Origin: Chloroflexia bacterium
GTDB lineage: Bacteria; Chloroflexota; Chloroflexia; Thermomicrobiales; JALYUS01
Reading direction: 5' to 3'
NCBI GenBank assembly: GCA_025924435.1
Contig: JAICIL010000250.1
Span: 1-6,729 of the forward strand
Length of the DNA: 6,729 nt
The notes beneath the pieces are model-generated. The model saw only the letters and a program-made list of their open reading frames with translations, was not told where the DNA came from and ran no database searches. The translations under genes were made by a program, and so were the position numbers. Positions 1-6,729 of the stretch are shown here, piece by piece (position 1 is the stretch's first letter; the number at the start of each line of letters is the position of its first letter).

Positions 1-7
1 GCTCGTC

Positions 8-1090
8 TCAATCGTTCCCAATGCCAAGACGCGGGTCGCGCGTCGTGTACAACTCCGTCAGTAAATCGCTCAACACCTGCGAGACGTACCGGACGGACGA
101 GATCGTCCGCTCGTAGTACATCCGCGTCGGCCCGAGCACCGCGACCATCCCCGTCACCTCGGACGGGATGCCATACGTCGCCAGGACGATGCCGAAATCC
201 CGCAGGGCATCCCACTGGTTTTCCGCGCCGATGATCACCTGCACGCTGTTGACGCGCTCGGTCTCCTCGGTGGCGACGAGCAACTGCGGCAGGAGCGCGG
301 TGAGGAGTGCGCCGCCGCGCAACAGTTCCACCAGCCGCCCGGCCCGCTCATGCCCGTCGAATTCCGGCTGCTGCAGGACGTTGCCGAGGCCGTCGTGGAC
401 GACCTCCGCGCTCATCGCCTCTTCGAGGTTCCGCAACATGCGTACCGCCTCGTCCGCGACGACGCGATCAATGCCGGCCATCTGCTCCGCCGCCGCCGCG
501 ATCTCGGCCCGGCCAAGGTTCGCCAATCGCGCGCTCACGCCGTCCGCGACCGCGCGCAGCCCCGCCTGATCGAAGGCGTCCGGCAGCGTCACCATCGCCT
601 GCCGCACCGCGCCTTCGCGCGTGACAAGGACCAGGAGCGCGGTCTTCTCCTGCACGGCGATCAACTCGACGTTCTTCACCTTCGGCAGCCGGGCGCGCGG
701 CGTTGTGACGACCGAGACGTTGCCCGCCACCCGCGCCAATACCGACGCGGCCAGTTTCACCCACTCGTCGAGATGCACCTCCACCTGGTGGAATTGGTGC
801 CGGATCAGCATCTGCTCGTTCGTCGAGAGCGATGGCTGCTCCATCAACCGCTCGACGTAGTAGCGGTACCCCGCGTCGGTCGGCGTGCGGCCGCCGGATG
901 TGTGCGCCTGCTGAATAAAGCCCATCCGTTCGAGCAGCGCCATGTCGTTGCGGACGGTCGCGCTCGAAATCTCCAGCCCGCCGCGTTCGACGACGGTCTT
1001 CGAGCCGATGGCGCGCACCGTTTCCGTATATTCGCGCACGAGGAGGCGGAGAATCCGCTCCTGCCGCGCGCTCAACCCCAGATCAGCCAT
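8..1090 (-). CDS. hrcA: HrcA, heat-inducible transcription repressor
   Basis: HrcA is a cytoplasmic dimeric repressor that binds CIRCE operators and shuts off chaperone genes (groESL, and the dnaK group in many bacteria) until heat stress. The 360-residue length is normal for the family. Residues 1-80 form the winged-helix DNA-binding domain with the family signature ISSATVRNDMALLE (41-54) and HTSGGRTPTDAGYRYYV (63-79). The middle is the GAF-like and dimerisation region. The C-terminus carries VIIGAENQWDAL (285-296), the Y-GIP turn and GMVAVLGPTRMYYER (314-328), all typical of HrcA. The ATG start is supported by AGGAG five bases upstream on the minus strand. A CIRCE operator lies 12 bp upstream and a promoter just beyond it, which implies autoregulation. 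The stop is 7 bp from the window edge, so a grpE-dnaK-dnaJ operon downstream cannot be seen. The identification is secure. Confidence 0.97.
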   Translation of the reverse strand: MADLGLSARQERILRLLVREYTETVRAIGSKTVVERGGLEISSATVRNDMALLERMGFIQQAHTSGGRTPTDAGYRYYVERLMEQPSLSTNEQMLIRHQFHQVEVHLDEWVKLAASVLARVAGNVSVVTTPRARLPKVKNVELIAVQEKTALLVLVTREGAVRQAMVTLPDAFDQAGLRAVADGVSARLANLGRAEIAAAAEQMAGIDRVVADEAVRMLRNLEEAMSAEVVHDGLGNVLQQPEFDGHERAGRLVELLRGGALLTALLPQLLVATEETERVNSVQVIIGAENQWDALRDFGIVLATYGIPSEVTGMVAVLGPTRMYYERTISSVRYVSQVLSDLLTELYTTRDPRLGIGND

Positions 1091-1102
1091 GCCTGCTCCT
1101 CA

Positions 1103-1129
1103 TTAGCACTCTCACCACACGACTGCTAA
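1103..1129 (-). promoter_or_regulatory. CIRCE operator (HrcA binding site)
   Basis: The site reads TTAGCACTC, a 9-bp spacer, then GACTGCTAA. The established CIRCE consensus is TTAGCACTC-N9-GAGTGCTAA, so the left half is perfect and the right half differs at one base (C for G in the third position). It lies between the hrcA ribosome binding site and the hrcA -10 box, at about +1 to +28 of the predicted transcript. There HrcA would block transcription initiation, and the operator would also sit in the 5' leader RNA. Confidence 0.95.
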
Positions 1130-1136
1130 TACTGGG

Positions 1137-1165
1137 ACAATACCACTTGACACAACTCATGTCAA
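1137..1165 (-). promoter_or_regulatory. hrcA promoter, sigma-A/sigma-70 type
   Basis: Read on the minus strand there is a perfect -35 box TTGACA (1160-1165), a 17-bp spacer and a -10 box TATTGT (1137-1142, four of six matches to TATAAT). Initiation is expected near 1130-1131, at the edge of the CIRCE operator. A perfect -35, ideal spacing and an operator at the start site together make this convincing without experimental mapping. Confidence 0.85.
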
Positions 1166-1189
1166 GGCGTTATCGCATGTTATGTCAAG
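1146..1189. repeat. CTTGACA inverted repeat plus third half-site over the hrcA -35 region
   Basis: CTTGACA (1146-1152) and its complement TGTCAAG (1160-1166) form a perfect 7-bp inverted repeat with a 7-bp gap. A third TGTCAAG (1183-1189) repeats the right half 23 bp further on, within an identical 8-mer ATGTCAAG at both places. The right arm contains the -35 box of the hrcA promoter. The dyad could be an operator for a second regulator. It could also be two opposed -35 boxes serving divergent promoters: plus-strand TTGACA at 1147-1152 would need a -10 near 1170-1176, where TTATCG or TATCGC is only a weak match. Function is unproven. Confidence 0.5.
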
Positions 1190-1256
1190 TATCTCGCTGG
1201 TGATTCGCGCTGTCTTGCCGTACCATGCACGATCGAAGGCTGGTGCGGAATGGCAG

Positions 1257-1389
1257 GGGATTGAACCACCAGGACACCAAGAACACGGAATACGCCAAGA
1301 AAATAGCGAGATCATTCACTCATTTCTTCCCATGCTCCTCTTCTCCCGTGGTGTCCTTGGTGTTCTTGGTGTCCTGGTGGTTCAATCCC
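1257..1389. repeat. Large intergenic hairpin element A (121-bp core with 9-bp periodic arms)
   Basis: A perfect 30-bp inverted repeat joins 1257-1286 to 1360-1389. The core from GAACC (1263) to GGTTC (1383) is 121 bp. Each arm is four tandem 9-bp units. The left units start at 1265, 1274, 1283 and 1292 (ACCACCAGG, ACACCAAGA, ACACGGAAT, ACGCCAAGA). The right units, read on the other strand, occupy 1373-1381, 1364-1372, 1355-1363 and 1346-1354 (ACCACCAGG, ACACCAAGA, ACACCAAGG, ACACCACGG). The centre, 1301-1345, is 45 bp. The element ends 29 bp before the lysA ATG, so in RNA it would be a long stem just upstream of the lysA ribosome binding site. I see no gene, T-tract or transposase. It is probably a dispersed repeat family member. 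Confidence 0.85.
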
Positions 1390-1401
1390 AACCGCGAAAT
1401 G

Positions 1402-1406
1402 AAAGG
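1402..1406 (+). promoter_or_regulatory. Ribosome binding site that decides the lysA start
   Basis: AAAGG sits six bases upstream of the ATG at 1413. The same reading frame stays open back to an ATG at 1182, but that extra stretch is translated from the hairpin element and has no comparable ribosome binding site. The 1413 start is therefore preferred. Confidence 0.6.
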
Positions 1407-1412
1407 CGATCC

Positions 1413-2771
1413 ATGGACGCGATCCCGACCCTCTCCGACGAGCAGCGCGTGCTGCCCCGCAGCGCGCGCCGCAACCGTGCGGGCCTGCTGACGCTCGGCA
1501 ATGTCCCGCTGACGACCTATGCGCTCCGCTACGGGACGCCGCTCTACCTCTTCGACGACGAGCATCTGCGCGCGACGATCTGGCGTTTCCGGCGCGCCTT
1601 CAGCGAGCGCCTGCCCGCCCCCGCGACCTTCACCCTCTCGTACGCCGCCAAAGCCTTCCTCTGCACCGCCCTCGTGCAAATATTGGCGGAGGAGCGCGTC
1701 GGCCTCGATGTCAATTCCGGCGGCGAACTGCACATCGCCCTGCACGGCGGCATGCCCGCCGCGATGATCCACATGCACGGCAACGCCAAGAGCGCCGACG
1801 AATTGCGCATGGCGCTCGAACGGGGCGTCGGCCGGGTCGTTGTGGACAACCCGACCGAACTCGCCGCGCTCGACCGGATCGCCGGGTCGCTCGGTGCGCG
1901 CGCCGCGATCTGGCTGCGCGTCAATCCCGGCGTCACCGTCCATACGCACGCGGCGATGGCGACGGGGCATCTCGACTCCAAGTTCGGCCTGCCGATCGAG
2001 ACGGGCGACGCCGCCCGCGCCGTCGCGACCGCCCTCGCCGCAGACAACCTCGATCTGATGGGGCTGCACGCCCACATCGGCTCCTCGATTGCGGAGACCG
2101 CACCGTATCAGGAGACGGCCCGCCGCTTCGTCCAATTCGCCGCCGAAATGCGCGCCCGGCATGGCTGGACGATGCGCGAGTGCAGCCCCGGCGGCGGTTT
2201 CGCTGTCCCCTACCTGCCGGACGACGAGGCGCTGGACGCCGATCGCGCCGCCGAGGCGATCATCCGTACGCTGGTGGAGGCATGCGCGGGCGCGGATTTC
2301 CCGGTGCCGGACATCACGATCGAGCCGGGCAAGGCGCTGATCGGCCCGGCGGCGATCGCGCTCTATACGGTCAACAACATCAAGGAGATCGCGGGCGTCC
2401 GCCGCTTCGTCGCGGTGGATGGCGGCATGGCGGACAATATCCGCCCGGCGCTCTACGGCGCGAATTACACGGTGCTGCTGGCGAACCGTGCGCCCGTGCG
2501 TGAGGCGGTCATCAGCACGGTCGTCGGGCGGTATTGCGAGAGTGGCGACATCCTCGCGCGCGACGTGCCGCTGCCCGCCGATCTCGAACCGGGCGACCTG
2601 CTCGCCTTCCCGACAGCGGGCGCGTACAGCATCCCGATGTCCAGCCAGTACAATGGCGTCCCGCGCCCGGCGATTGCCCTCGTGCGCGAGGACGGCACGC
2701 ACCAATTGATCCGCCGCCGCGAGACGTACGACGACCTCCTGCGCGCCGACGTGCCGCTGGAAGAGATGTAG
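1413..2771 (+). CDS. lysA: Diaminopimelate decarboxylase (LysA)
   Basis: LysA is a PLP-dependent fold-III decarboxylase that converts meso-2,6-diaminopimelate to L-lysine and CO2, the last step of lysine synthesis in the cytoplasm. The 452 residues have the N-terminal alanine-racemase-like barrel and C-terminal beta domain in order. YAAKAF carries the Schiff-base lysine K80. HGNAKS (122-127), TGHLDSKFG (184-192), HIGSS (221-225), GGGFAVPY (260-267), DGGMADNIRPALY (336-348) and CESGD (375-379, contributed across the dimer) follow, with GAYSIPMSSQYN (403-414) near the end. The motifs favour diaminopimelate over ornithine or arginine decarboxylases. One oddity is EPGK (304-307), where the family normally has EPGR. 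The ATG at 1413 has AAAGG six bases upstream, whereas an in-frame ATG at 1182 would add 77 residues read from repeat DNA. It probably leads an operon with the next two genes. Confidence 0.93.
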   Translation: MDAIPTLSDEQRVLPRSARRNRAGLLTLGNVPLTTYALRYGTPLYLFDDEHLRATIWRFRRAFSERLPAPATFTLSYAAKAFLCTALVQILAEERVGLDVNSGGELHIALHGGMPAAMIHMHGNAKSADELRMALERGVGRVVVDNPTELAALDRIAGSLGARAAIWLRVNPGVTVHTHAAMATGHLDSKFGLPIETGDAARAVATALAADNLDLMGLHAHIGSSIAETAPYQETARRFVQFAAEMRARHGWTMRECSPGGGFAVPYLPDDEALDADRAAEAIIRTLVEACAGADFPVPDITIEPGKALIGPAAIALYTVNNIKEIAGVRRFVAVDGGMADNIRPALYGANYTVLLANRAPVREAVISTVVGRYCESGDILARDVPLPADLEPGDLLAFPTAGAYSIPMSSQYNGVPRPAIALVREDGTHQLIRRRETYDDLLRADVPLEEM

Positions 2772-2816
2772 GATGCGTGTTTGCTAGTGTTCATTAAGAC
2801 GTAAGGAGCGCCCACC

Positions 2817-3542
2817 ATGCCATTCGCCGATCTCACGGGCCGTATCGCCATCGTCACCGGTGGGGCGGGCGCGCTCGGCCGGGCGACCGTCCGCGTGCTG
2901 CTCGACGGCGGCGCGACCGTCGTCACGACCGACACGCACGGCCACGGCATGCGCGATCTCGCCGCATCGCTCCCGGACGACCTCCGCGCCCGGTTCGCGA
3001 CCGTCGAGGCGGATGTGGCGACCGAGGGCGGCGCGGAGGCGGTCGTGCGCCAGGCGACGGATGCGCACGGACGGTTGGACATCCTCATCAATATCGTCGG
3101 CGGCTACGCGGGCGGGCCGACCGTCGCGGAGACCGATCCGGCGACCTGGCGCGAGCAGTTTGAATTGAACGCGACGACCGCCTTCCTGATGGCGCACGCG
3201 GCGATCCCGGCGATGCAATCGCGCGGCTGGGGGCGTATCATTAACGTCGCGTCGCGCGTCGCCCGCACCGCGCCCGCCGGATTGAGCGCGTACGCCGTGT
3301 CGAAGGCGGCGGTGATCACATTGACCGAGGTGCTGGCGAACGAGGTGCGCGAATACGGTATCACGGCGAACGCGATCATGCCGAGCGTCATTGATACGCC
3401 CGCCAATCGCCGCGCGATGCCGGACAGCGATTTCAGTCAGTGGGTGCGACCGGAGGAGATTGGCGGCGTAATCCGCTTCCTCGCGTCTGAGGAGAGCGGC
3501 ATCATCAGCGGCGCGGCGATCCCGGTCTACGGGCGCGCGTGA
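2817..3542 (+). CDS. Short-chain dehydrogenase/reductase (classical SDR), substrate unknown
   Basis: This is a single-domain Rossmann-fold NAD(P)-dependent oxidoreductase of 241 residues, the normal length for classical SDRs. The cofactor motif is TGGAGALG (14-21), a TGxxxGxG variant with Ala at the second glycine. D39 at the end of strand beta-2 (VVTTD) suggests NAD(H) over NADP(H). D66 in EADV and INIVGG (91-96, replacing the usual NNAG) follow. The catalytic tetrad is complete: N118, S146, Y159 and K163 (YAVSK). After IMPSVIDTPANR (187-198) comes the usual SDR C-terminus. AAGGAG (2803-2808) lies eight bases before the ATG, and the gap to lysA is 45 bp, which supports co-transcription. Alcohol/ketone substrates range from 3-oxoacyl-ACP to sugars and steroids across this family, and nothing here fixes the substrate. 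The fabG-like resemblance is general and I do not assign a symbol. Confidence 0.9.
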   Translation: MPFADLTGRIAIVTGGAGALGRATVRVLLDGGATVVTTDTHGHGMRDLAASLPDDLRARFATVEADVATEGGAEAVVRQATDAHGRLDILINIVGGYAGGPTVAETDPATWREQFELNATTAFLMAHAAIPAMQSRGWGRIINVASRVARTAPAGLSAYAVSKAAVITLTEVLANEVREYGITANAIMPSVIDTPANRRAMPDSDFSQWVRPEEIGGVIRFLASEESGIISGAAIPVYGRA

Positions 3543-3554
3543 CCCTCGCGAGGG
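3543..3554. repeat. 12-bp perfect palindrome directly after the SDR stop
   Basis: CCCTCGCGAGGG begins on the base after the dehydrogenase TGA. In RNA it could form only a 4-bp stem with a CGCG loop, and no T-tract follows, so it is not a convincing terminator. The rest of this 42-bp spacer is purine-rich, with GCAACGA at 3555-3561 and again at 3576-3582. Confidence 0.4.
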
Positions 3555-3570
3555 GCAACGAGCGAGGAGC

Positions 3571-3576
3571 AAGGAG
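3571..3576 (+). promoter_or_regulatory. Ribosome binding site supporting the GTG start at 3585
   Basis: AAGGAG with an 8-base spacer precedes GTG 3585. The first in-frame ATG, at 3651, has GAGGAG directly abutting it with no spacer, which is poor geometry. The GTG is therefore the better start. Confidence 0.75.
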
Positions 3577-3584
3577 CAACGAAC

Positions 3585-4535
3585 GTGTCACTGACGGGTG
3601 CGTACGGTGGGGGAAAATGGTCGCCGCGCACGCAATCGCGCCGCGAGGAGATGGCGGAGATCTGGGGCGATTGGGGGTCGGGGTCGGAGTGCGGCCGGTT
3701 GCGCGCGGTGCTGCTCCACCGGCCCGGCCCGGAACTCGATGAGATCGTGGACTTCGACGCGGTGCAGATGCGCGCCGACCTGCGGCCCGATCTCGCCCGC
3801 GCGCAGCACGACGCGATGGCCGATGCCTACGAGGCCGAAGGTATCGCCGTCCATTACGTCGAGGGATACCGGCCCGACAAGCCGAACCAACTCTTCTGCC
3901 GGGACCTGATGACGATGTCGCCGGAAGGGGCGATCCTCGCCCGCCCGGCGAGCACCGTCCGCGCGGGAGAGGAACGCATCCTCGCGGAGACGCTCGGCCT
4001 CCTCGGCGTGCCGATCCTGATGAGCGTCCACGGCGTCGGTACCTTCGAGGGGGCGGACGCGATGTGGGCCGCGCCCGACCTCTGCTTCGTCGCCGAGGGG
4101 CTGCGCACGAACCGCGCGGGCGCGGAGCAGGTGGCGTGGGCGCTCGAAAACATCGGCGTCGCGGTGGAGCGCGTCATGTTGCCGTATGGCGCGATGCATC
4201 TCGACGGCATGCTGAACTTCGCCGCGCCGGACCTCGCCGTCGTCTGGCCGCGCCGCACGCCGATGAATGTCGTGCGCGTGTTGCGGGAGCGCGGCGTGCG
4301 TATCGTCCATCTGCTCGATGAACCGGCGACGCACGACTGCCTGCCCGGCAACTTCGTCGCCCTCGCCCCGAACCGCATCCTCATGCCGACCGGCGCGCCC
4401 CGCCAGCGCGCCATCTACGAGGACGCGGGCATCACCTGCATCGAGGTAGAGGTGAGCGAACTGATCAAAGCAGGCGGCGGCATCCACTGCATGACCGCCT
4501 TCCTGAAGCGCGACGACACGGACGAAACCGGATGA
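3585..4535 (+). CDS. Pentein-fold guanidine-modifying enzyme (arginine deiminase/DDAH/amidinotransferase superfamily)
   Basis: Members of this superfamily attack a guanidine or related carbon with a cysteine, either hydrolysing it (deiminases, DDAH, ureidohydrolases) or transferring an amidino group. At 316 residues it is shorter than arginine deiminase (about 400), apparently lacking that enzyme's extra helical domain. The expected active-site order is present: LRAVLLHRPGPEL (39-51), FCRD with D107, GTFEGAD with E155, LRTNR (173-177), MHLDGML with H205 and D207, and GGGIHCMT with the likely nucleophile C302. By analogy with arginine deiminase, D107, E155, H205, D207 and C302 would be the catalytic and guanidine-binding set. 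Start is GTG with a good ribosome binding site; an ATG at 3651 is a weaker alternative that would remove the first 22 residues. It lies 42 bp after the dehydrogenase, probably in the same operon. Substrate is unknown; dimethylarginine, arginine and citrulline-like compounds are all possible. Confidence 0.85.
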   Translation: MSLTGAYGGGKWSPRTQSRREEMAEIWGDWGSGSECGRLRAVLLHRPGPELDEIVDFDAVQMRADLRPDLARAQHDAMADAYEAEGIAVHYVEGYRPDKPNQLFCRDLMTMSPEGAILARPASTVRAGEERILAETLGLLGVPILMSVHGVGTFEGADAMWAAPDLCFVAEGLRTNRAGAEQVAWALENIGVAVERVMLPYGAMHLDGMLNFAAPDLAVVWPRRTPMNVVRVLRERGVRIVHLLDEPATHDCLPGNFVALAPNRILMPTGAPRQRAIYEDAGITCIEVEVSELIKAGGGIHCMTAFLKRDDTDETG

Positions 4536-4543
4536 AACCGAAT

Positions 4544-4664
4544 GAACCGCAGAGGCGCAGAGGGCGCGGAGAGCGCGGAGAGGATTCTGAGAAGACGAGA
4601 TTTGGTATCTCGTTTTATCTCTCTTTCCTCTGTATCCTCTGCGTCCTCCGCGCCGCTGCGGTTC
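4544..4664. repeat. Large intergenic hairpin element B (121 bp with 9-bp periodic arms)
   Basis: The element runs from GAACC (4544-4548) to GGTTC (4660-4664). Left-arm 9-mers start at 4546, 4555, 4564 and 4573 (ACCGCAGAG, GCGCAGAGG, GCGCGGAGA, GCGCGGAGA). Right-arm units, read on the other strand, occupy 4654-4662, 4645-4653, 4636-4644 and 4627-4635 (ACCGCAGCG, GCGCGGAGG, ACGCAGAGG, ATACAGAGG). The outer 28 bp of the two arms pair with four mismatches. The first nine bases, GAACCGCAG and CTGCGGTTC, pair perfectly. The centre 4582-4626 is 45 bp. It begins 9 bp after the pentein gene stop and ends 32 bp before the recN ATG. Core length, ends, unit size and centre length equal those of element A, although the units differ. 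Confidence 0.85.
4592..4616 (+). terminator. Possible weak intrinsic terminator inside element B
   Basis: ACGAGAT (4595-4601) and ATCTCGT (4607-4613) form a perfect 7-bp stem with a 5-base loop. The stem extends by a G-T and two A-T pairs, and TTTT occurs at 4613-4616. This is the only hairpin in the window followed by a T-run, and it lies downstream of the pentein gene, where an operon end is plausible. The stem is short and AT-rich, and it may simply be the tip of the larger hairpin. Confidence 0.35.
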
Positions 4665-4696
4665 TCCCCGGTATCGTCCCACGCTGGTGAGTGGCG

Positions 4697-6475
4697 ATGC
4701 TAGTAGAGTTGAGCATTCAGAATATCGCGATCATTGACCGGCTGCGGGTCGCCTTCGAGCCGGGCATGAACGCGCTCACCGGCGAGACGGGCGCGGGGAA
4801 GTCCATCATCATTGACGCCCTCGGCGCGGTCGTCGGCGGGCGGACCTCGCCCGATATGCTCCGTGCCGGCGCGGAGCGGGCGCGGATCGAGGCGGTCTTC
4901 GATGTCACCGACCGGGACGATCCCGCGCTCGCCGCGCTGCTCGACGAGGCGGGTATCGAGCACGAGGACGGCACGCTCATCCTCGCGCGCGACCTGCAAT
5001 CGAATGGTCGCTCGGTCGCCCGCATCAACGGGCAGACCGTGACGGTCGGCCTGCTCGGTCGCGTCGGCGAGCGGCTGGTGGACATTCACGGCCAGAGCGC
5101 CCATCTCTCTCTGCTCCGTCCCGCCACCCATCTCGACTTCCTCGACGCCTACGCCGGGCTGATGGAACGGCGCGCGGCACTGACGGCGCTCGTTGGCCGC
5201 GTGCGACGCATCCGGGCCGAGCGCGCCACGCTGGAGCGGGACGACCGCGAACTCGCGCGCCGCATGGACCTCCTCCGCTTCCAGGTGGAGGAGATCGCGG
5301 GCGCGAACCTCGAACCTGAGGAAGATGACGCCTTGCGCGCCGAACGGCAACGGCTCGCCAACGCGTCCAATCTGCAAGTGATCGCGGACACGGTCTATCG
5401 TACACTGCGCGAGGGGGCGCCGCCGCGCGGCACGAGCGTCGTCGAGGGGCTGCGCGATGTGGCGAAGAACCTCGGCGAACTGGCGAAACTCGATCCCGCG
5501 CTGGCCGAGGCGGAGAGCGAGGTGGACGAGATGGTCTACCTGCTCGAGGATGTCGCCGCCACCGTCCGCACCTATCGGGACACGGTGGAGGACAACCCGG
5601 CGCGGCTGGCGGAAGTCGAGGAACGGCTCTCACTCATCCGCGATCTGGAGCGGAAATACGGCGGCACGGTGGCTGAAGTGCTCGCCTTCGGCGAAGAAGC
5701 GGAGCGCGAACTGGCGACGCTGGAGGGGAGCGAGGAACGCCTCGCCCAATTGCGCGACGAGGAAGCGCACGTGCTGCGGCAAATTGGCATGCAGGCGGGG
5801 AAGTTGTCGCAACTGCGGCAGAAGGGCGCGTCGCGCCTCGCCAAGGCGGTGGAGGCGGAGATCGCCCACCTCGCGATGGGCCGCACGCGCTTCACCGTCT
5901 ACCAGTCGCAGGAAGAAGACCCGGAGGGCGCACCGGTCGGCGGCGACGACGGCCACGCGCGCCATCTCGCCTTCGATGCGCGCGGCGTTGACCGCGTCGA
6001 ATTCCTGATCGCCCCCAACGTGGGCGAAGCGCCGAAACCGCTCGCCCGCATCGCCTCCGGCGGCGAGACCGCGCGCCTGATGCTCGCCCTCAAATCCGTC
6101 CTCGCGGCGGCGGACGCGACGCCGACGCTCGTCTTCGATGAGGTGGATGTCGGCATCGGCGGACGCAGCGGGCAGGTCGTCGGCGAGACGCTCTCGTCGC
6201 TCGCCCGCACCCATCAGGTGCTCTGCATCACCCACCTCGCACAGGTCGCCGCCTTCGCGGACGGCCATTTCCGCATCGTCAAGCGGGACGTGCGCGGCCG
6301 GACGGTCTCCGATGTCGAGCGATTAGACGAACCGGAGCGCGTCGAGGAGCTAGCCGCGATGCTCGATGGCGTCCCGATCACCCCCGCCGCTCGCGCCAGC
6401 GCGCGCGACCTCGCGGAACGCGCCGCCGCCCGGAAAACGGCAACCGAAACGCCGCGCCAGCCCGCCGCCGATTAG
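4697..6475 (+). CDS. recN: DNA repair protein RecN
   Basis: RecN is an SMC-like ATPase that gathers broken DNA ends during RecA-dependent double-strand-break repair, acting on the nucleoid. The 592 residues are close to the usual 550-590. The N-terminal ATPase half starts with the typical MLVELSIQNIAIIDRL, followed by Walker A GETGAGKS (29-36) and LVDIHGQSAHLSLL (127-140). Residues about 150-395 are rich in Arg, Glu, Ala and Leu and look like the antiparallel coiled-coil arm, with RDLERKYG (315-322) on the return strand. The C-terminal half has the ABC signature region RIASGGETARLMLALK (451-466), Walker B TLVFDEVDVGIGG (477-489) and an H-loop ITHLAQVAAFAD (511-522). ATG 4697 matches the family start, with GGTGA six bases upstream; a GTG two codons earlier lacks a ribosome binding site. 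No promoter or LexA-like box was seen upstream, and element B fills the gap. Confidence 0.96.
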   Translation: MLVELSIQNIAIIDRLRVAFEPGMNALTGETGAGKSIIIDALGAVVGGRTSPDMLRAGAERARIEAVFDVTDRDDPALAALLDEAGIEHEDGTLILARDLQSNGRSVARINGQTVTVGLLGRVGERLVDIHGQSAHLSLLRPATHLDFLDAYAGLMERRAALTALVGRVRRIRAERATLERDDRELARRMDLLRFQVEEIAGANLEPEEDDALRAERQRLANASNLQVIADTVYRTLREGAPPRGTSVVEGLRDVAKNLGELAKLDPALAEAESEVDEMVYLLEDVAATVRTYRDTVEDNPARLAEVEERLSLIRDLERKYGGTVAEVLAFGEEAERELATLEGSEERLAQLRDEEAHVLRQIGMQAGKLSQLRQKGASRLAKAVEAEIAHLAMGRTRFTVYQSQEEDPEGAPVGGDDGHARHLAFDARGVDRVEFLIAPNVGEAPKPLARIASGGETARLMLALKSVLAAADATPTLVFDEVDVGIGGRSGQVVGETLSSLARTHQVLCITHLAQVAAFADGHFRIVKRDVRGRTVSDVERLDEPERVEELAAMLDGVPITPAARASARDLAERAAARKTATETPRQPAAD

Positions 6476-6489
6476 CACGCTATTTCAGG

Positions 6490-6506
6490 GCGGTTGTGCC
6501 GACCGC
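6490..6506 (+). repeat. Short hairpin downstream of recN
   Basis: GCGGT (6490-6494) and ACCGC (6502-6506) form a 5-bp stem with a 7-base loop, 14 bp after the recN stop. There is no T-run behind it, so an intrinsic terminator is not supported. GGGCGGTT here resembles the start of the palindromes at 6579 and 6646, so it may be a decayed relative. Confidence 0.3.
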
Positions 6507-6526
6507 GCATCGGTGGTGGCGGCCGA

Positions 6527-6718
6527 AGCCCAATGCGGTTCAGTTAACGATCAAGCAGTGCTCCCGCTGGCTGCGTACGGGCGGTTCGCGAACCACCCTC
6601 CCCGGATCGTTCGCGCCGCTCCGACCGCGCCCTGCTGTCGCTAGAGGGCGGTTCGCGAACCGCCCGTACGGACAGTGAAAAGATGCTCCTGCCGCTCCTC
6701 ACTGAACCGCATTGGGCT
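6527..6718. repeat. Inverted repeat with 18-bp arms enclosing 156 bp (possible MITE-like element)
   Basis: The arm 6527-6544 (AGCCCAATGCGGTTCAGT) is matched exactly by its complement at 6701-6718. Similarity resumes further out: TGGCGG at 6517-6522 is complementary to CCGCCA at 6724-6729, the last bases of the window, so the right arm may continue outside. The right end also contains its own small hairpin, GGGC-TGAA-GCCC (6715-6725 area). No reading frame in 6476-6729 looks coding, no transposase is present and no target-site duplication can be judged because the right edge is cut. A non-autonomous mobile repeat or a structured RNA 3' end are both possible. Confidence 0.7.
6574..6670. repeat. 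Inner palindromic pair (GCGGTTCGCGAACC motif, two copies)
   Basis: A perfect 20-bp palindrome lies at 6646-6665 (GGGCGGTTCG followed by its complement). A second copy at 6579-6598 differs at one base (A for G at 6595). With flanks CGTAC (6574-6578) and GTACG (6666-6670), the two copies form a 25-bp inverted repeat with one mismatch, separated by 47 bp. Both lie inside the 18-bp outer repeat, so the region can fold either as two small hairpins or as one long stem. No T-tract follows. Confidence 0.75.
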
Positions 6719-6729
6719 GAAGCCCGCCA

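Follow-up and report, generated by a model that had tools for sequence, protein, structure and literature searches.

Intergenic hairpins with tandem-unit arms in a Chloroflexia bacterium and their probable kinship with cassettes encoding a GxxExxY nuclease

The window analyzed here is a stretch of 6,729 nucleotides from a Chloroflexia bacterium (GenBank contig JAICIL010000250.1, positions 1 to 6,729), which carries hrcA, a decarboxylase gene, a DDAH-like gene and recN, together with two intergenic hairpins, termed elements A and B, whose arms are built from short tandem units. Arms of this kind also enclose genes of the GxxExxY family in other genomes, and this relation is the subject of the present analysis. 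Element B lies 8 bp past the stop codon of the DDAH-like gene and 26 bp ahead of the recN open reading frame (ORF). No closer genome was found than G001 (L001, a Chloroflexia bacterium metagenome-assembled genome), in which RecN is 91% identical over the first 218 residues. The features of the two elements are the following:

1263–1383, no strand assigned: element A, a 121-bp hairpin with CACCAAG-type units, between the divergent hrcA (minus strand) and decarboxylase gene (plus strand)
1257–1297, plus strand: left arm of A including an outer GGGATT extension, 41 nt, 88% complementary to 1349–1389
1349–1389, minus strand: right arm of A including the outer extension, pairing with 1257–1297
4544–4664, no strand assigned: element B, a 121-bp hairpin with CGCAGAG/CGCGGAG-type units
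4544–4571, plus strand: left arm of B, 28 nt, 86% complementary to 4637–4664
4637–4664, minus strand: right arm of B, pairing with 4544–4571
4535–4543, plus strand: outer unit on the left side of B, AAACCGAAT; units of this kind stand next to ACC in G001 elements (CGAATGA, CGATTGA)
4665–4672, minus strand: outer unit right of B, TCCCCGGT, of the GGGGAGA kind, present in G001 elements too

Both elements measure exactly 121 bp from GAACC to GGTTC and share the same unit phase, as the initial annotation had read off the sequence: in each, ACC is followed by a 6-bp motif, by the next one 8 bp on, and then by others in 9-bp steps. This anatomy, ACC and then RCNRAG motifs at 8-bp and afterwards 9-bp spacing, is conserved in the arms of the family. 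The paired arms of A extend past the 121 bp (1257–1389), and additional units of about 9 bp also adjoin B on its outer sides. On the plus strand the fold z-scores were -8.85 for A and -8.06 for B, and none of 200 shuffled sequences folded equally well. A search of Rfam returned only matches far under their gathering scores, a plasmid search with element A as the query gave no match, and a GxxExxY gene was not found in the window.

The shared length of 121 bp and core of 45 bp had also been taken as meaningful, a claim that we could not sustain. A catalogue of 146 hairpins was compiled from stretches of six related genomes picked for arm matches, so that its counts are not genome densities: 45 in 363 kb (G249), 40 in 296 kb (G357), 29 in 254 kb (G001), 26 in 398 kb (G009), 1 in 172 kb (G297) and 5 in 168 kb (G079). 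Reversed-sequence controls gave 1, 2, 0, 0, 0 and 0, in the same order. With ACC and GGT as end points, A and B are 117 bp long and the catalogued hairpins 46 to 256 bp, the long ones including a few chance or nested finds; a length of 117 bp occurs in 2 of the 146, both in G009. Nor is it unusual for two hairpins of one genome to have the same length: this applies to 3 of 351 pairs in G001, 21 of 630 in G249, 52 of 561 in G357 and 4 of 210 in G009. At the site in G001 orthologous to that of B lies a 57-bp element (AACC to GGTT) that has lost most of its left arm and whose flanks prolong the inverted repeat. Because length and unit number differ freely among the other copies, the outcome that the initial annotation had itself named as the mark of chance, the exact shared layout is a coincidence.

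The arm pattern was scanned with up to one mismatch allowed. Across 301 Chloroflexota genomes its distribution was patchy, with 0 to 411 matches per genome and the highest counts in G249 (411 in a 3.4-Mb genome), G001 (164), G263 (125) and G179 (94); 130 genomes had at least one match, many of them at background, and the reversed pattern gave 0 to 3 per genome. Of 61 genomes related to G009, the only ones to stand out are G009 itself, G001 and perhaps G005 (four matches). Arm matches were also found in 32 of 299 Pseudomonadota genomes, up to 34 each, with three control matches overall, and in at least 120 stretches of IMG/VR viral contigs, about one being estimated by chance; examination of 80 of these viral loci yielded 57 hairpins against one in reversed sequence. 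The hairpins are short, have inverted terminal arms, contain no ORF and occur in several copies per genome. Several unit types coexist in one genome, mostly with the same type in both arms.

Other repeats accompany the arms in places. Single arms at L210–L229 (G179) lie inside larger repeats next to AACCCAAGTTGCTACC-like direct repeats, and in that genome every unit of a tandem array of about 193 bp contains one arm. A second repeat of about 130–150 bp (CTGACA...CCTCCCGCAGGTT...GGGAGGCT) sits in hairpin cores at L092, L105 (both G249) and L118 (G357), in one of the two species. Some cores (L276, L279, L254) hold another palindromic repeat, GTGGGTCCCGGCTT-CGCCGGGAC, forming nested palindromes.

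Inverted tandem-unit arms flank GxxExxY genes at a frequency far above that of control genes, and arm-rich genomes carry the gene. Six wide arm pairs were present in the stretches, with ORFs listed in L138, L153 and L226. In L138 (G001), arms 499 bp apart enclose an ORF of 137 aa that belongs to the GxxExxY family (PF13366, E 1.1e-39; TIGR04256, E 3.5e-40); GxxExxY was not among the ORFs of L153 and L226. A search with the TIGR04256 profile in 66 genomes sorted by arm matches detected the gene in 22 of 26 arm-rich genomes (at least 18 matches) and 6 of 40 arm-poor genomes (0 to 3 matches; p = 1.9e-8, kinship not corrected), or in 20 of 23 against 6 of 40 after removal of three Pseudomonadota (G671, G545, G529) that enter both comparisons. 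Within the Pseudomonadota, where 57 of 299 genomes have the gene, it was present in 20 of the 32 with an arm match and in 37 of the 267 without (p = 7.5e-9, again with no correction for kinship); for one of the 20 (G521), the arm listed is the GxxExxY gene's own neighbor.

The flanks were scored at 56 genes with at least 200 bp on each side, derived from 70 loci and 64 distinct genes; L454, L457, L491 and L494 (no tblastn hit), two duplicates and 8 of the 64 genes with less than 200 bp on one side were left out. Inverted repeats with a score of at least 14 flanked 38 of the 56 genes and 6 of 300 controls, and with a score of at least 16, 32 of the 56 and 3 of 300. These arms are tandem units of many sequences (e.g. 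CGCAAAGRA, CACGAATTT, GCGGATTAA, CGCGAATGAA, ACAGGATTA), and genes between such arms occur in G001, G009 and G379. With plasmid loci included, 43 distinct loci score at least 14, and the median span is 535 bp over 45 rows (two overlaps). Fragmentary GxxExxY genes between arms, at L498 and L499, represent decayed cassettes. Eight named plasmid records comprise clear arms in Bacteroides, Bernardetia and Sphingomonas, the right arm of the last falling within the ORF end, outward arms in Gemmatirosa, and no clear arms in Persicobacter, Treponema, Prevotella and Fusobacteria.

In 54 intact copies of the protein, E37 (0.96), D76 (1.00), E86 (1.00) and K88 (0.96; G001 numbering) are conserved, the predicted catalytic positions of a PD-(D/E)XK nuclease. 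The nearest solved folds to its AlphaFold model (mean pLDDT 90.5) were LHK-Exo, lambda exonuclease and SSO0001, a Cas4 protein (E of at least 0.0017, probability 0.99–1.00, TM-score 0.44–0.55). Lambda exonuclease and Cas4 act on DNA ends. By sequence no credible solved homolog was obtained, the PDB giving six weak ankyrin-type chain matches. The family is large: among the 7997 scored clusters listed, at least 7944 pass an E value of 1e-10. In the open-licence PubMed Central (PMC) literature, no paper was found that links GxxExxY to repeats or assigns it a role; two papers mention the family, once each and in passing only, and PF13366 also occurs in a third, PMC9756366.

In the cases examined, cassette or hairpin lies directly 3' of a stop codon and is missing at the same site in relatives. 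In Bacteroides finegoldii the left arm of the cassette begins 1 bp past the stop codon of radA, and its right arm extends to 5 bp ahead of the next start; at this site Parabacteroides distasonis has 13 bp between the genes and Phocaeicola massiliensis another open frame. In Sphingomonas parapaucimobilis the left arm begins 6 bp past the fabD stop, and S. paeninsulae and Sinorhizobium meliloti have a short spacer only ahead of fabG. The spacers do not align, so the cassette boundaries cannot be fixed to the base.

Gene context was assessed for 125 elements in five genomes with a crude, purpose-made gene caller. Ninety-eight lay in gaps between called neighbors, of which 64 were codirectional, 26 convergent and 8 divergent; the background intergenic regions of at least 60 bp numbered 445, 112 and 136, in the same order. 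Of the remaining elements, 21 were inside called genes, G009 accounting for 10 of these, and 6 at edges. The distance of the element from the stop codon clusters around 8 bp in G249, 5 bp in G357 and 12 bp in G001, and is scattered in G009 and G079. The alignment of G249 with G357, over 64 kb, has eight elements common to both, one partly, and no clean empty site was found in it; a difference of 3.9 kb beside an element contains ordinary genes, and another, of 1 kb, was viewed as sequence only.

With slightly better than even confidence, we regard A and B as non-autonomous relics of GxxExxY cassettes, a family of very small mobile elements, resembling miniature inverted-repeat transposable elements (MITEs). 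The full element would be a cassette of about half a kilobase in which one GxxExxY ORF (PF13366/TIGR04256, PD-(D/E)XK) lies between inverted arms of tandem units of about 9–10 bp, and hairpins such as A and B would have kept the arms and lost the ORF. As the cause of movement we infer the GxxExxY protein: the nuclease, or a host pathway fed by it, would process DNA at the arms, and copies of cassettes and hairpins, the latter served in trans, would be inserted where little harm results, with direct transposition or break repair and annealing as candidate routes. The process would tolerate, or follow, changes in unit sequence. Bacterial MITEs are alike in being short, intergenic, free of ORFs and present in many copies with inverted arms, and a fuller relative is here a candidate as well. 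The hairpins differ from MITEs in their arms of tandem 9-bp units, their variable unit sequence and the lack of a clear target duplication, and the cassette differs from MITE partners in having a nuclease in place of a known transposase.

Several observations weigh against this reading, for which the evidence is one of association. In at least 4 of the 43 loci (L431, L445, L495, L503) the arms point outward and the gene lies between two hairpins, and our confidence is lowered because of such loci. No clear flanking arms at score 14 were seen at 18 of the 56 GxxExxY genes, and the arm types of cassettes often differ from most hairpins of the same genome. Four arm-rich genomes, G179 (a single 5.26-Mb contig), G298, G150 and G545, lack GxxExxY. 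Many arms are single, a partner being present for 14 of 68 in G179 and 0 of 20 in G297. No clear target-site duplication was found, apart from a slight excess of 2–4-bp direct repeats in G249 only; some transposons make no such duplication. Y1 transposase genes had flanking inverted repeats with a score of at least 14 at 4 of 9 usable loci out of 12, by a laxer measure (the best of three offsets), and proved a poor negative control. Hairpins of period 7, described below, have the architecture of the 9-bp family and no known partner gene. Finally, a search of viral contigs for close relatives of GxxExxY gave 12 pattern stretches, none of which was confirmed, and the gene was not found in 50,697 phage records. 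Since viral contigs carry hairpins and no GxxExxY was found there, the nuclease would have to act on them from the host.

The arms themselves look symmetric when made and appear to decay independently afterwards. In G009, left and right units had identities of 0.96/0.95/0.91 against 0.86/0.82/0.81 when shuffled, and this pair-specific covariation within the genome first suggested selection on pairing. Eight orthologous element pairs (seven between G249 and G357, one viral) provided 216 paired positions: 136 were unchanged and symmetric, 58 had a change on one side, 19 were asymmetric in both and 3 were mirrored, against 2.7–5.3 mirrored changes expected if the arms change independently; the count omits L105:2468, a ninth pair with CA versus CG units in both arms and, by eye, about three more mirrored positions. 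Arm mismatches on the transcript strand comprised 88 G:U, 100 A:C and 89 others, so that G:U did not outnumber A:C on the sense strand (p = 0.42). Selection on pairing is not supported, because the orthologs show no excess of mirrored changes, and neither is the 'selection on shape' proposed by the initial annotation, with mirrored changes at chance level and G:U not above A:C. Symmetry at birth accounts for both the covariation within a genome and the lack of mirrored changes.

A group of related phage contigs (portal, scaffold and capsid genes, by reading) has one short intergenic site that occurs with 13 distinct sequences. Hairpin versions carry a 9-mer (L351) or the 7-mers AGGACTG (L360), GGCTGAA (L361) and GGGGTAA (L305 and four identical contigs); further versions are AGTGAAC arrays (L364, L359), a hairpin of the 8-mer AACAGGAG (L365) and an unclear one (L363). 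A short spacer only is present in five: L355 (with three identical contigs), L374, L370, L375 and L366. A second phage site, 3' of the portal gene, shows comparable variety. An unbiased scan for periodic-arm hairpins in G009, G001 and the phage set found 44 of 51 to be of period 7 at a stricter cut, and 57 hairpins in total at a laxer one; those of period 7 or 8, at L159–L177 (G009) and L352–L379 (phage contigs), have many different units, and in 41 of the 57 the arms are more alike to each other than are the units within an arm. The alternative offered by the initial annotation, that copying is by one shared mechanism able to accept different repeat units, agrees well with several unit types per genome, with the exchange at the phage site and with the many unit sequences around one nuclease family.

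Two related contigs with phage-tail-like genes differ at one intergenic site, L276 (7605–7775) having a CACGAAG type and L279 (6549–6692) a AACGCAGAGG type.

Among other explanations, a general DNA process acting on any 7–9-bp unit (replication slippage with hairpin-templated elongation, or hairpin annealing at forks), with GxxExxY merely carried along at such sites, which it would tolerate or prefer, is unlikely but deserves serious consideration. The independence of the architecture from the unit, the many units of the period-7 hairpins in G009 and phages, the exchange of units at one phage site, the arm-rich genomes without GxxExxY and the genes that lie between two hairpins are all in keeping with it; however, one and the same 9-bp unit family reaches hundreds of copies in a genome and recurs in different phyla, which needs dispersal, and one nuclease family is strongly flanked. 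We consider improbable a function at the RNA level, in which the 3'-end hairpins would be terminators, stabilizers or ribosome termination structures under selection. Stable folds, their rarity between divergent genes, their position directly 3' of stops in G249, G357 and G001, and the ribosome termination structures 3' of stops described in the available text of PMC7518266 agree with such a role. Against it speak the G:U and A:C counts on the sense strand (88 versus 100), the lack of a mirrored-change excess at orthologous sites with an arm divergence of 0.19, the position of element A between divergent genes and the relatives that do without a hairpin at one phage site.

Mobilization by a Y1 transposase, as of REPINs (repetitive extragenic palindromic doublets forming hairpins) by RAYTs (REP-associated tyrosine transposases), is more improbable still. 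REPINs are alike in their inverted pairs and single units 3' of genes, and the intergenic position and high copy number agree, but their unit anatomy is another: a REPIN is defined as a short palindrome with a GTAG-type end, and the arms here are tandem units. The link to Y1 is weak, with a match in 18 of 23 arm-rich against 19 of 40 arm-poor genomes (p 0.02), and G357, G001, G189, G298 and G359 are arm-rich without a Y1 match, some of these assemblies being incomplete. The closest description of the arms is that of the class 2 repeats of Geobacter metallireducens, where 'predicted global regulator binding sites' of classes 1–3 were reported as unique to that genome in the excerpt available of PMC2700814. 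As given there, these sites are likewise inverted pairs of tandem 7–9-bp units at variable distance, and class 2, three tandem TCTCCGTS[Y] in opposite-strand pairs, matches the right-arm unit CTCCGTG of the hairpin family, a comparison made by published consensus only; they differ in being read as regulator sites, with no nuclease link in that excerpt. That the hairpins are binding sites of a global regulator (IHF/HU-like) seems highly improbable to us, given elements 3' of stops rather than at promoters, their presence or absence in close relatives, their free decay and the nuclease ORF between such arms. Six arm words, taken as exact strings, were absent from the open-licence PMC literature.

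Short tandem heptamer repeats (STRR) are found in cyanobacteria. The TAACTGA heptamers of Beggiatoaceae and cyanobacteria, in the text available from PMC4679880, are direct repeats mostly 5' of start codons; of 170 sets, one is inverted. They are alike in being short tandem units between genes with a patchy distribution across taxa; the hairpins differ in their inverted arrays 3' of stops and their units of about 9 bp.

The window contains further repeats. An inverted repeat 5' of hrcA, ATTAGCACTC-N9-GACTGCTAAT (1102–1130), is close to the consensus of the CIRCE (controlling inverted repeat of chaperone expression) operator of HrcA, and the hrcA upstream region also has the inverted pair ACTTGACACAAC/GTTATGTCAAGT (1145–1190). 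Near the contig end (6515–6720), a nested palindrome GCCCAATGCGGTTCAGT...ACTGAACCGCATTGGGC with inner GGGCGGTTCGCGAACC repeats belongs to a different repeat family.

The reading of A and B as relics of GxxExxY cassettes leads to a wider proposal, which we advance tentatively, as possible rather than probable: a new kind of mobile element, in which a lone small PD-(D/E)XK nuclease of the lambda-exonuclease/Cas4 type spreads itself, along with many hairpin satellites, in phages and in bacteria belonging to several phyla without a known transposase, recombinase or reverse transcriptase, by way of arms of tandem 9-bp units that are free to change if they match at birth. The period-7 hairpins may be a sister class of another enzyme. 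The relic reading, if right, would give a large protein family without a known role its first one, and connecting GxxExxY with the hairpins would merge two puzzles into a single system open to test, a mobile element roughly half a kilobase long together with satellites. Repeats between genes that have hitherto been read as regulator sites would be accounted for as well, and so would the differing short gaps 3' of stop codons between related operons.

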